A stretch of DNA of 39,608 bases from a virus: positions 1-39,608 of IMG/VR virus record IMGVR_UViG_3300050821_002799. One strand, 5' to 3'. Numbering within the stretch: position 1 is the stretch's first letter; every line of letters starts with the position of its first letter. A program made the translations under genes and the position numbers. This document shows, in pieces, positions 2,431-17,974 of this stretch. The notes under the pieces are model-generated. The model saw only the letters and a program-made list of their open reading frames with translations. It ran no database searches and was not told where the DNA came from.

Positions 2431-4302
2431 ATGGTCTACTCGGTCGAGGATCAAAAACGCTACCGCGACTACCTGTATGGCCCAGGCGGTCCGCACCCGT
2501 CGGTGTTCAACTATCCCGGCGACCCGGCGCCGTACGTGCCCGGCTGGACGCCGACCGGCACGCCGAGCAACGCCTATGATCCGACCGGCGCCGACAACGG
2601 CCTGTTTGCGCCGGGCCTGGTGCGCGGTGACCCGACCTCGGAAGACGCGGTGCGGCGCTGGAATATCGCGCATCTGCTGACGCCGCCGCCGAGCGGTGGC
2701 GCGATCACCGCGCCGCAGGCGGCAACCGCGCCAGGCGGCCCGCTCGGGCCTGCTGACGACGCCGCGGCGCGCCGCAATGCGATCGCCTGGGCGCTGCTGT
2801 CATCGCAGTTGCCGGGCGGCATGCAGGGCAGTGCCGACTATGGCGGCATTACCGCCGAGGCGCCGTCGACCGCGGCGCCGGCCACCGCGGCGCCAGCCGC
2901 CGACACCAGTACCGACACCAGCGACACCAGTGCGCCAGCGTCGACCACTGCCGCACCGACCGAGGCGGCGCCGACGGCGGCAGCACCGACGACGGCAGCA
3001 ACTCCGGCGACAACGTCGACCGACACCGGTGCGCCGGCCGAAGGCTACGACACCACGCAGGCCGACAGCGGCAACACCGCAAGCAGCAACACCCAGGCGC
3101 AGCAGCAGGCCAACCAGGCCACGACCGCGACCCCGGCGCAGACCGCGATCGGCCTGGCGAACCAAGCCTACCAGAGCATCACGGCGCCGACGCCGCCCAC
3201 CGCGCCCACCGAGAAAGGCGAGCCGACCGCGGCCGAAGACGCCCAGGCGCTGGCAGAAGCCAACCAGGCGGCGATCGCGCAAGGCTTCATGAACCCGGAC
3301 GGCACGCCGGCGGTCGGCGTCACCACGACCACATCGCCGGTTTCCATCGCCGAAGCCAATGCCGCGGATACCGCCGAAGCGGTCGGCAATGCCACCGGGC
3401 AGTCGCTGGGCTCCGGCGTCGGCACCATCGGCGCGCCTGGCACCGGCCTCAGTGGCGGATACGGCCTCGGCGCCACCGGCATCAGCGCCGCCCCGGCGGG
3501 CTCACCGGGCAGCGCCACGCCGGGACCAGCCTCGAACACCGGGGCGGCGAATGCGTCGGGCGCTATTTCCGGCTTCGGCTACGGTACGATCGGTCCGGCA
3601 ACCCAAGCCCCGGCGCCAATCGGCCTGAACTTGGGTGACGTGACGACCACGGTGGCCACACCGACGGTGGCACCGGCCGCACCGGCTACCGTCGCGGCAC
3701 CCACCGCGCCGATGAGCCCGGCCCAGATGGCCGAGGCGCTGGCGCACGGCACGCCGAACCCGGCCGAGATGACCCAAGCCGACGCGGTCGATGCCATGAA
3801 CAACGCGGTGGCCAATACCTTCGGCTACACCGAGGCGCAGAACCAGGCCATGAACACCGTGTCGCCGGACGCCGCCACCACGGCCGATGTCGGCGCGGTC
3901 GGCGCCGGCGTCAACGGCATCGGCTTCTCCGGCTTCGGCTCCGGCGCCACCGGCCTGGCCGGCATTGGCGCGCAGGCCGGCTTGGGCGCGCCGTCCGGTA
4001 TCGCCGGCGTCACCGGCCAGGGTTTTGGCGCACCCGGCGATGCCGGCGTCGGCATCGGCTCCGAGGGCGCGCCGGGCGCGGGCGCCGACGGCTTCGGCGC
4101 CGGCGCCACCAGCGCGGTCGGGGCCGAGAGCGGCTACGGCTATGGCACCACGGCCAGCGTCGCGGAGGCGGCGAGCGCGGCGGCGGACGCCGCGGCGGCG
4201 CAGGCCGCCGCCGATGCGGCCGATGCGGGCGACACCGGCGAAAGCGCCGCCGGCGACAGTGGTGGCGAGGGTGAAGGTGAAGGCGCCGGAGAGGGCTACT
4301 GA
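2431..4302 (+). CDS. Ala/Thr/Gly-rich low-complexity virion-region protein
   Basis: The start is the ATG at 2431, 8 nt after the previous stop; the open frame upstream is a shadow of the preceding gene. The 623-aa product has a short ordered N-terminus (MVYSVEDQKRYRDYLYGPGG) and then almost entirely Ala, Thr, Pro and Gly with many degenerate repeats (AATAPGG, TSTDTS, GIGAPG, GFGAPG). It ends in an acidic GEGEGEGAGEGY tail. It has no recognisable domain, and its composition resembles phage proteins that act as flexible internal or fibre-associated components. The stop overlaps the next start (TGATG), so it is expressed with the late virion genes. Function unknown. Confidence 0.6.
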   Translation: MVYSVEDQKRYRDYLYGPGGPHPSVFNYPGDPAPYVPGWTPTGTPSNAYDPTGADNGLFAPGLVRGDPTSEDAVRRWNIAHLLTPPPSGGAITAPQAATAPGGPLGPADDAAARRNAIAWALLSSQLPGGMQGSADYGGITAEAPSTAAPATAAPAADTSTDTSDTSAPASTTAAPTEAAPTAAAPTTAATPATTSTDTGAPAEGYDTTQADSGNTASSNTQAQQQANQATTATPAQTAIGLANQAYQSITAPTPPTAPTEKGEPTAAEDAQALAEANQAAIAQGFMNPDGTPAVGVTTTTSPVSIAEANAADTAEAVGNATGQSLGSGVGTIGAPGTGLSGGYGLGATGISAAPAGSPGSATPGPASNTGAANASGAISGFGYGTIGPATQAPAPIGLNLGDVTTTVATPTVAPAAPATVAAPTAPMSPAQMAEALAHGTPNPAEMTQADAVDAMNNAVANTFGYTEAQNQAMNTVSPDAATTADVGAVGAGVNGIGFSGFGSGATGLAGIGAQAGLGAPSGIAGVTGQGFGAPGDAGVGIGSEGAPGAGADGFGAGATSAVGAESGYGYGTTASVAEAASAAADAAAAQAAADAADAGDTGESAAGDSGGEGEGEGAGEGY

Positions 4303-4796
4303 TGCTCGGCTATGTCTACGAAGAGGACAAGCTGATCGCGCAGTTCGTGGCGCAGATGATCCCGCATGTTCGTGATTTCGGCTTCGGCGACAACGTGCGG
4401 ACCATCGGCGTCGTCAACGACAAGGGGGAGCTGATTGCCGGCTTCGTCTATCACAACTACGACCCTGGCGCGGAGGTGATCGAGATCTCCGGCGCCGGGC
4501 TGCCCGGCTCGCGCTGGTGCACACCGTTCACGCTCGGCAAGATCTACCGCTACCCGTTCCTGCAGCTCGGCTGCCAGATGATCGTGCAGCGGGTGCCGGC
4601 CAGCAACACCAGGCTGCTGCGAGAGTTTGCGGCGCTGAACTACATGCTGATCAAGGTGCCGCGGCTGTTCGGCCGCGACCAGGACGGCGTGCTCGGGTTG
4701 CTGACCCGCGAGGACTGGGCCGCCAACAAGATCTGTCAACGCTACGGCCATCACCGCGAGGCCGAACCGCTCATCGTATTCGAGGAGGCCGCCTAA
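4302..4796 (+). CDS. GNAT-like acetyltransferase-fold protein
   Basis: The 164-aa protein resembles the GNAT-fold proteins often coded beside internal virion proteins of podoviruses. There is an N-terminal beta-alpha region and a central stretch (GELIAGFVYHNYDPGAEVIEISGAG) like GNAT strands 2-4. A helix follows at FTLGKIYRYPFLQLGCQMIV, then SNTRLLREFAALNY, the typical NxxMxxxxxKlGF-like position. The acetyl-CoA pyrophosphate loop (Q/RxxGxG/A) is not obvious, so activity may be lost or altered. Start and stop overlap both neighbours by one base (TGATG, TAATG). It may be a structural relative of T7 gp13-type proteins or modify a host or virion protein; the choice is open. Confidence 0.55.
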   Translation: MLGYVYEEDKLIAQFVAQMIPHVRDFGFGDNVRTIGVVNDKGELIAGFVYHNYDPGAEVIEISGAGLPGSRWCTPFTLGKIYRYPFLQLGCQMIVQRVPASNTRLLREFAALNYMLIKVPRLFGRDQDGVLGLLTREDWAANKICQRYGHHREAEPLIVFEEAA

Positions 4797-16138: not shown

Positions 16139-16176
16139 CGTGATGCTCGCTTTCCGGGTTGAATGTTAGCAATCGA

Positions 16177-16206
16177 GGTATAGCGGTGCCGCTTGCCGGA
16201 TGTCAA
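16177..16206 (-). promoter_or_regulatory. Sigma-70-type promoter for leftward accessory unit
   Basis: On the minus strand TTGACA (16201-16206) and TATACC (16177-16182) are separated by exactly 18 nt. TTGACA is a perfect -35 and TATACC matches four of six -10 positions, placing transcription start about 30 nt before the ATG at 16138. It is divergent from the HTH gene at 16252. Confidence 0.65.
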
Positions 16207-16221
16207 TTGCATCATTGCAAT
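16206..16221. promoter_or_regulatory. Inverted repeat, possible operator in a divergent region
   Basis: ATTGC (16206-16210) and GCAAT (16217-16221) are inverted around a 6-nt centre. The left arm shares its first base with the -35 box of the leftward promoter. An HTH protein is encoded 30 nt away, so an autoregulatory operator is conceivable. Five-base arms are short and could be chance. Confidence 0.35.
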
Positions 16222-16251
16222 GTGAACAACTTTCGATTAAGTGTGGCTTCC

Positions 16252-16500
16252 ATGCCCAAGCTCCACCCCATGGCAGCCAAGCTGCTGGCCGACATCGAGG
16301 CGTATCGCGCGCGGGTCGGCATTGATCGCACGGCTTTCGGCAAGAAAGCCGCGCATGACGGTCACTTCATCGCCCGCGTCGAAGCAGGGAGGCTCCCGCG
16401 GCTCACCACCATCGATCAGGTCTATCGCTACATGCGGCGCACCACCTCTGCGGTGCGCGACACCACGTCAACGTTCATCACAACCGAGGGGACGAAATGA
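16252..16500 (+). CDS. HTH-type DNA-binding regulator (82 aa)
   Basis: I took the ATG at 16252; the earlier in-frame ATG at 16159 would extend into the divergent promoter region. The product has a helical N-terminus, then DRTAFGKKAAHDGHFIARVEAGRLPRLTTIDQVYRYM. This reads as a helix-turn-helix of the Cro/XRE kind with the AxxxxxFIxxVExGRxPRL recognition region. The C-terminal 25 residues are Thr/Arg-rich. There is no ribosome site, so it may be translated from a short or absent leader. It heads a rightward run of overlapping small genes that includes the GcrA homologue; the next ATG overlaps its stop. Confidence 0.65.
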   Translation: MPKLHPMAAKLLADIEAYRARVGIDRTAFGKKAAHDGHFIARVEAGRLPRLTTIDQVYRYMRRTTSAVRDTTSTFITTEGTK

Positions 16501-16811
16501 GCTTATCCAGTGATTTGGCCTCGCTTGAAAACGAGATCGAAAGCCTGCGCGCCGAGGTCAAGATCCTGCGCGAGGCGCGCGCCGTGACAGATTTCGAAAA
16601 CGCCGACTTGAAACACCGCCTCGCCAAGGCGGAGGCGCGCAACTCGGTGCTACTGATGCGCGAGACCACGCTCAAGACCATCGTCCGGCAGACCGGCGCC
16701 GGGCTGGTCGACAGCATCACCAAGTACACCGAGGAGACCAAGGACAATTTCTTCGAGCCGGAACCGCGCAAGGCAATCGCTGACGAGCGCAAGGGGTCGT
16801 CGCATGCATAA
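16497..16811 (+). CDS. Coiled-coil hypothetical protein (104 aa)
   Basis: The ATG overlaps the preceding TGA (ATGA). The first ~50 residues are a heptad-rich coiled coil (LASLENEIESLRAEVKILREARAV, then FENADLKHRLAKAEARNSVLLMRE). A less regular, acidic/basic C-terminus follows (YTEETKDNFFEPEPRKAIADERKG). It probably oligomerises. No catalytic motif is seen. Placed between a regulator and zinc-ribbon proteins, it may take part in regulation, but this is only context. Confidence 0.65.
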   Translation: MSLSSDLASLENEIESLRAEVKILREARAVTDFENADLKHRLAKAEARNSVLLMRETTLKTIVRQTGAGLVDSITKYTEETKDNFFEPEPRKAIADERKGSSHA

Positions 16812-16995
16812 GCCGCGCACCATCACCTTGGAGCAGTACGAGGAAGCCGAGCGGCTGCAGCACGGCATCTGCAAGAGCTGCGGCGCCACCCGTGAGTGCT
16901 GCGAGCCCGACGCCCGCAACTACCGCTGCGACGAGTGCGGCGAGCGGCGGGTGTTCGGCCCGCATGAGTGGCTGATGGAGGGCCGCGTCACATGA
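16804..16995 (+). CDS. Zinc-ribbon protein (63 aa)
   Basis: The ATG lies 8 nt inside the end of the coiled-coil gene. The product has C-xx-C at GICKSCGATRECC and a second C-xx-C at YRCDECGERRVFG, together a zinc ribbon. A short helical N-terminus (LEQYEEAERLQH) precedes it. Small ribbon proteins of this pattern recur in tailed phages and may bind nucleic acid or a host polymerase; the target here is unknown. Confidence 0.65.
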   Translation: MHKPRTITLEQYEEAERLQHGICKSCGATRECCEPDARNYRCDECGERRVFGPHEWLMEGRVT

Positions 16996-17216
16996 GCAGC
17001 ACACCACAGTTCATCAAAGAAGGCTGGAAGCAGCACGGTCCCGGCAAGTGTCGCTGCCCGAACTGCGGCAGCATCTGCTCGACCAACGCGATGGCACGCG
17101 CCCGCCATGTCTGCCCGCCCAAGCCGGAGCCGCCGCGGGCGCCACCGGAGATCAGCGCCACAACGCTGGTCGCCGCGGTCCGCAGCGCGATCAGGAGACC
17201 CAAACGTGACGGCTAA
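16992..17216 (+). CDS. Zinc-finger-like small protein (74 aa)
   Basis: I chose the ATG at 16992 (ATGA overlap) rather than the upstream ATG at 16968. Residues ~18-40 carry CRCPNCGSICSTN...ARHVC, a possible single zinc site with more Cys than needed. A Pro-rich linker (PPKPEPPRAPP) and a short helix ending RRPKRDG follow. It ends just inside the GTG-started GcrA-like gene. Its function is not recognised. Confidence 0.6.
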   Translation: MSSTPQFIKEGWKQHGPGKCRCPNCGSICSTNAMARARHVCPPKPEPPRAPPEISATTLVAAVRSAIRRPKRDG

Positions 17217-17649
17217 CATCCACCACTGGAACCCCGCCATGCTGGCGCGGTTCACCGTGCTGTGCGCTGACGAGAGCCTGACCTTTCGCGCCATCCGCGA
17301 TCTCATGAACGTCGAGTTCGACACCGACCTGAGCCGCAACGCCTGCATCGGCAAGGCGCGGCGGCTCAAGATGCCGCCGCGCGACCCCGTCAACAACCCG
17401 ACGCTGAAGAAGGAGCCGACCGTGGCCAAGATCATCTTTCCGATCCAGCCCGAGCTGCCGCCGCGCTCGGCCGAGCCGTTCACCATCAGCATCTACCAGC
17501 TGCGCACCCACGATTGCCGTTGGCCGAGCGGCGAGCAACGGCCGCCGTTCACCTATTGCGGCCGCAAGGCGCTGAGCGGCCTGCCCTACTGCCCGACCCA
17601 CACCCGGCTGGCGCGCAGCGGGCCGAGAGGACCGAAACCGCAGCCATGA
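17206..17649 (+). CDS. GcrA-family cell-cycle regulator homologue
   Basis: The start is a GTG at 17206 with AGGAGA 7 nt upstream. The 147-aa protein has the GcrA plan. The N-terminal HTH (residues ~10-56) contains LTFRAIRDLMN and SRNACIGKARRLKM, matching the SRNAVIGKxHRLGL recognition helix. A basic/Pro linker (57-90) follows. The C-terminal domain (~100-135) has C104-RWP, FTY-C118-G and LPY-C129-PTH132, the C/C/C/H set of GcrA. In Caulobacter, GcrA binds sigma-70 region 2 and activates promoters with methylated GANTC. The helix before the recognition helix is a little longer than usual (MNVEFDTDL). Binding to GANTC is not implied; I found no such site in the window. Confidence 0.85.
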   Translation: MTANIHHWNPAMLARFTVLCADESLTFRAIRDLMNVEFDTDLSRNACIGKARRLKMPPRDPVNNPTLKKEPTVAKIIFPIQPELPPRSAEPFTISIYQLRTHDCRWPSGEQRPPFTYCGRKALSGLPYCPTHTRLARSGPRGPKPQP

Positions 17650-17816
17650 AAACCTTCCTGATCGTGATGTCGCTCGCTGGTCCTACGCCGGAGAGCATCA
17701 AGGAGATGCCGGGTAACTTAAGCTGCCGGGTCGCGGTGGCGCGGCTGCGCACCGCCGCCGAGGATCCGCTGAAGGGCCGGGTGTTCTGCCAAGTCGCCAG
17801 GAAAGACTACGAATGA
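17646..17816 (+). CDS. Small hypothetical protein (56 aa)
   Basis: I chose the ATG at 17646, overlapping the GcrA-like stop (ATGA). The product MKTFLIVMSLAGPTPESIKEM, then LSCRVAVARLRTAAEDPLKGRVFCQVARKDYE starts with a hydrophobic stretch too short to be a clear signal peptide. Two Cys (LSC, VFC) could pair if exported. Coupled upstream and downstream by 4-nt overlaps. Function unknown. Confidence 0.55.
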   Translation: MKTFLIVMSLAGPTPESIKEMPGNLSCRVAVARLRTAAEDPLKGRVFCQVARKDYE

Positions 17817-17974
17817 TCGAGCCGCCGCCGAGCGTGGAAGAAGTCGAGGCCTTGATCGCGCGCATCGAGCGCATCCAGGTCAGCTGGCGTGGCAATGTCG
17901 GCTACGCCCGCAGCCTCGACATCGAGCTGCGGGCGCTGCGGCTGCTGCTGGCTCAGATCCTGCTGGCCAAGTAG
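17813..17974 (+). CDS. Small helical protein (53 aa)
   Basis: The ATG overlaps the previous TGA (ATGA). The product reads MIEPPPSVEEVEALIARIERIQVSW then VGYARSLDIELRALRLLLAQILLAK, two amphipathic helices with a Leu-rich second one. It ends 22 nt inside the 3' end of the convergent helicase gene, marking the end of this rightward run. The overlap chain and codon use support it as real; its role is unknown. Confidence 0.55.
   Translation: MIEPPPSVEEVEALIARIERIQVSWRGNVGYARSLDIELRALRLLLAQILLAK

Follow-up and report, generated by a model that had tools for sequence, protein, structure and literature searches.

The window analysed here, the whole of a 39,608-base virus record, was found to encode a GcrA-family protein of 147 amino acids on the forward strand (17206..17649, +) and to contain no GANTC at all. 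GANTC is the CcrM/GcrA site, and GcrA helps RNA polymerase to activate cell-cycle genes at methylated GANTC. A GcrA of the usual specificity therefore has no target on its own phage record, and we somewhat favour the view, with a probability of roughly 0.55, that the phage protein works with sigma-70 as a cofactor and acts in trans, on promoters of the host.

The gcrA ORF was assigned from its match to the Pfam GcrA profile PF07750 and from comparison of a model with the structures 5yiu, 5yiv, and 5yix. It begins with a GTG codon and is preceded, with a 7-nt spacer, by a Shine-Dalgarno-like AGGAGA (17193..17198, +; read directly). A matching GTG start is used by a syntenic homologue, locus L003 (IMG/VR contig 3300021478_000008, record G001), whose product is 81% identical. 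PF07750 matched the phage protein in two stretches, corresponding to its N- and C-terminal parts, at 59.7 bits (E 5.9e-16) versus a curated cut-off of 26.9 bits, and this HMM check confirmed the GcrA-type identity put forward in the original prediction. Together, the profile match and the identity to the syntenic L003 protein argue that the ORF is not a product of chance. Moreover, the GcrA chains 7ye1 and 5yix were the only relatives found in a PDB sequence search. The protein is laid out as an HTH (residues ~6-56), a linker (~57-90), and a sigma-interacting domain (~91-138). Its translation contains all of the motifs that had been named beforehand, namely SRNACIGKARRLKM (residues 43-56), CRWP (104-107), YCG (117-119), and YCPTH (128-132). 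The codons of the first of these, the recognition region, lie at 17332..17373 (+), as located in an alignment of 30 viral GcrAs, and the Cys/His set consists of Cys104, Cys118, Cys129, and His132.

Against NF050816, the NCBIfam equivalog model of chromosomal GcrA, the phage protein scored 39.3 bits and did not reach the cut-off of 280. Such a score, far below the cut-off, indicates a member of the GcrA family rather than an orthologue of chromosomal GcrA, and, as a non-orthologue, the protein may have diverged in function. PF07750 also scored above its cut-off in the Sulfolobus acidocaldarius control genome, which was unexpected for the GcrA family. In addition, the megaplasmid of M. extorquens AM1 carries a gcrA-like paralogue with an in-frame TGA (726620-726994; L148/L149), a possible pseudogene, near an intact gcrA-like paralogue at 729309-729794.

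An AlphaFold2 model of the phage protein, for which the alignment of 30 viral GcrAs served as input, had a pLDDT of 85, and GcrA structures were the top PDB fold matches for both of its halves. The HTH matched the DNA-binding domain (DBD) of C. crescentus GcrA (5yiu) with 49 of 49 residues aligned and a Z of 8.2, a value that is modest alone (the best unrelated row reached 7.0) and that agrees with the sequence match; it matched the methylated-DNA complex 5yiv with an rmsd of 0.9 over 45 residues. The sigma-interacting domain was aligned with sigma-70-bound 5yix_B over 47 of 48 residues (rmsd 1.8, 38% identity). As predicted folds, the DNA-binding and sigma-interacting halves are both intact, and the earlier claim to this effect was upheld by the model, with the match to 5yix indicating that the sigma-interacting domain is retained. 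Across the 30 aligned viral GcrAs, Cys104, Cys118, Cys129, and His132 were invariant, as were R44, N45, A46, I48, G49, K50, and R53 in the helix spanning residues 44-53, although the conservation of this recognition helix was partly preselected, since the pattern used to collect homologues itself requires it. The invariant helix was present in GANTC-free loci (L007 and L118) and in GANTC-containing loci alike.

The HTH had been described as having a lengthened turn compared with the usual form. In the model of the phage protein, helix 2 comprises residues 27-38 (12 amino acids, FRAIRDLMNVEF; codons 17284..17319, +, delimited by AlphaFold2 DSSP of this protein versus L036), and the turn to helix 3 comprises residues 39-43 (5 amino acids); in L036, a short-form viral GcrA modelled with a similar alignment, helix 2 and the turn comprise 8 and 5 amino acids, respectively. 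Because the turn is of the same, normal length in both models, the extra residues lengthen helix 2, by about one turn of helix, and the description has to be amended accordingly. The long HTH is, moreover, found in many viral GcrAs: 24 of the 118 viral matches among the matches listed (about one fifth) were of the long form, the pattern being unbiased for the helix 2 region. A narrow long-form pattern, E-F/I/Y-G/D-T-x-x-S/T-R-N-A, matched 9 viral stretches and none of the contigs, 257 Gb in total, from bacteria and archaea; given how narrow this pattern is, the apparent absence of the long form from such contigs is only suggestive. Scans of bacterial contigs for gcrA-like matches gave none. 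An extension of helix 2 by 4 to 5 residues, as seen in the models, could change which DNA the protein prefers, and viral GcrAs that carry it offer natural variants for probing how the HTH reads methylated DNA.

The gcrA gene is the fourth of six ORFs (16497-17974), each overlapping the next by a few bases, and these overlaps agree with the operon of small Cys-rich (zinc-ribbon-like) and HTH genes that had been proposed. All are on the forward strand. The run opens with a 104-amino-acid protein (16497..16811, +), which had weak coiled-coil-like matches only and whose L003 homologue is 47% identical. It is followed by two Cys-rich, zinc-ribbon-like proteins, one of 63 amino acids with CxxC pairs (16804..16995, +), 94% identical in L003 and with no significant family match, and one of 74 amino acids (16992..17216, +), 83% identical to its L003 counterpart over 42 amino acids. 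Downstream of gcrA are two orphan ORFs, which are missing from L003: one of 56 amino acids (17646..17816, +), which shares an ATGA overlap with gcrA and had no counterpart in L003 or the other loci searched, and one of 53 amino acids (17813..17974, +), which ends the operon and meets a convergent helicase gene. The genes upstream of gcrA are kept in L003. A small HTH-like gene encoding 82-83 amino acids (16249..16500, +; weak HTH_31 match) precedes the six-ORF run, and six further phage records contain a homologue of it, in each case with gcrA adjoining or near. Upstream of the operon lies a divergent intergenic region (16139..16248, no strand assigned) that is nearly identical in L003 and that contains an inverted repeat, ATTGCA-4-TGCAAT (16206-16221); L003 has this repeat without any change, and the small HTH protein may use it as an operator. 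Scans of the operon for sigma-70 promoters and terminators gave nothing above chance.

Among the large ORFs of the window, PHROG matches identified an amidase, an endolysin, a tail fibre, a DNA polymerase, a primase, a helicase, a terminase, and a portal protein. Amid the structural genes, at 4302-4796, is a gene of the 'host takeover' class that encodes an acyl-CoA N-acyltransferase (phrog_4470). The window had no match to the integrase profile PF00589, nor to the CcrM-type (PF01555) or Dam-type (PF05869) methyltransferase profiles, results that are to be read with the possibility that the record is a fragment. No RNA polymerase was found among the large ORFs scanned, so that the phage is likely transcribed by the host RNA polymerase; the profile of phage-type RNA polymerase, PF00940, had no match in the window and likewise none in any control genome, a negative that carries little weight. 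Judging by the protein family (GcrA), the GANTC signature, and the related portals of Rhizobium and Bradyrhizobium phages, we infer that the host is probably an alphaproteobacterium, and its CcrM/GcrA status likewise.

The absence of GANTC from the window contrasts with an expectation of 145 ± 10 sites (dinucleotide shuffles of the 39,608 bases), and the related record G001 (43,055 bases) also had 0, versus ~115 expected. Base composition alone does not account for this loss, as all other NNxNN palindromes are present and the observed/expected ratio was 0.6-1.0 in the non-alphaproteobacterial control phages (Stenotrophomonas, Burkholderia, and Myxococcus phages). Over 127 viral loci with a GcrA-like ORF, window included, the median ratio was 0.25 for GANTC versus 0.85 for control palindromes. 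A pure host signature is partly true as an explanation, since ratios of 0.2-0.3 were obtained for two Methylobacteriaceae replicons and for the tested Rhizobium and Bradyrhizobium phages, but finding 0 of 145 is far more severe than that; for alphaproteobacteria, some depletion seems to be the norm and complete loss an extreme. A tie between the purge and gcrA was also rejected. Of 30 phage records with a related portal, 10 had the gene above the family cut-off, and portal-related phages with and without it were both strongly depleted. It follows that gcrA is not the cause of the purge, which characterises the phage group independently and is in itself no pointer to GcrA function. Similarly, no link of the purge to the long HTH form was retained, as long and short forms did not differ significantly (p = 0.21). 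Another palindrome, GCCGGC, was present 114 times in the window versus 0 times in G001 (~103 expected), possibly reflecting recent restriction-site avoidance in G001.

In the trans-acting reading that we favour, sigma binding, m6A-GANTC binding, the host target, and the effect on the cell are steps that we infer. The C-terminal Cys/His domain would dock onto domain 2 of host sigma-70, and the N-terminal HTH would bind m6A-methylated GANTC beside promoters and aid open-complex formation. The conserved recognition helix, taken with the GANTC-free phage, makes the host regulon the likely target, as proposed for phiCbK (PMC3556154): the promoters acted on would be those of the host CcrM/GcrA regulon (S-phase and replication genes), not phage promoters, and the infected cell would be pushed toward a replicating state. 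The original prediction also allowed for RNA polymerase being redirected at promoters of the phage; by the standard GcrA mechanism, this is unlikely with 0 GANTC in the record. Phage promoters could still be served if the protein kept its sigma-70 binding and its altered HTH read another motif; only another specificity would serve GANTC-free promoters, and the helix 2 that is about one turn longer in the model, the net insertion of ~6 residues relative to the DBD of C. crescentus (where 51 residues of the model span 45 aligned ones), and the conservation of gcrA beside the small HTH gene are all consistent with this. We nevertheless consider such re-targeting improbable, because the R-N-A-x-I-G-K-x-x-R helix is identical to that of short-form GcrAs, the GANTC content of the phages is not significantly different between long and short forms, and no candidate motif was identified.

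The retained fold of the sigma-interacting domain would also suit a protein that sits on domain 2 of sigma-70, and possibly on GANTC as well, but does not activate, so that host GcrA is displaced and S-phase and cell-cycle promoters are turned off. Repressor action is known for other phage sigma regulators (PMC7403470), and a phage with zero GANTC would be indifferent to losing GcrA-dependent transcription and thus itself immune to the shutdown of host promoters. However, a simple sigma blockade would need no intact DNA-binding domain, and we regard this explanation as unlikely. A degenerate, non-functional remnant of host origin is very improbable: the score of just 39 bits against the chromosomal equivalog model could be taken that way, but the ORF is intact, has a ribosome site, lies in a translationally coupled operon, and keeps the key residues, a second phage carries the 81% identical syntenic copy, and the gene recurs in a third of the portal-related records. 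A phage that is GANTC-free and yet encodes GcrA allows a host-directed role to be told apart from a phage-directed one, and so opens the question to experiment. More tentatively, with the target site removed from the phage genome, the regulator might be able to act on the host chromosome alone, in a one-way takeover of the methylation-dependent cell-cycle regulon of the host, to which the phage itself would be blind.

Phage-encoded GcrA is already known, from phiCbK (2012), other annotated phages, and names in BFVD, and we found >100 phage-encoded GcrAs in IMG/VR; no experiments on any phage GcrA were found in the literature searched. Pelagiphages are alphaproteobacterial phages that are also GANTC-depleted, and the parts of the report consulted draw no link between this depletion and phage GcrA (Seong 2022, PMC9516812). 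Microcystis phage Mwe-JY13 and Synechococcus phage Ssp-JY42 each encode a 'GcrA cell cycle regulator' of the same family with low sequence identity, and the portal protein of Mwe-JY13 is also related to that of the phage described here; in both, GANTC is reduced, not absent. Chromosomal GcrA stimulates the open complex, contacting domain 2 of sigma-70 as well as m6A promoters (PMC7403470), and the promoters that it activates have an extended YGAKTCG motif (PMC7987155). The C. crescentus protein (5yiu, 5yiv, 5yix, and 7ye1) shares with the phage protein the HTH, the linker, and the Cys/His sigma-interacting domain, as well as the RNAxIGK recognition helix and the C-R/K-W-P, CG, and YCxxH motifs. 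It differs in its length (173 versus 147 amino acids) and in its helix 2, which is about one turn shorter, whereas the phage protein is phage-borne, is encoded by a GANTC-free record, and scores 39 bits against the equivalog model. Finally, gp222 of phiCbK and its homologues in phiCbK-like phages are likewise phage-encoded PF07750 proteins, a likeness that rests on the family and on the published proposal that the phiCbK homologue pushes the host toward DNA replication (Gill 2012, PMC3556154). phiCbK, however, is a giant Caulobacter siphophage rather than a 39.6-kb record, and the 20 kb of its genome that was read contains 37 GANTC sites (observed/expected 0.44), versus 0 here.
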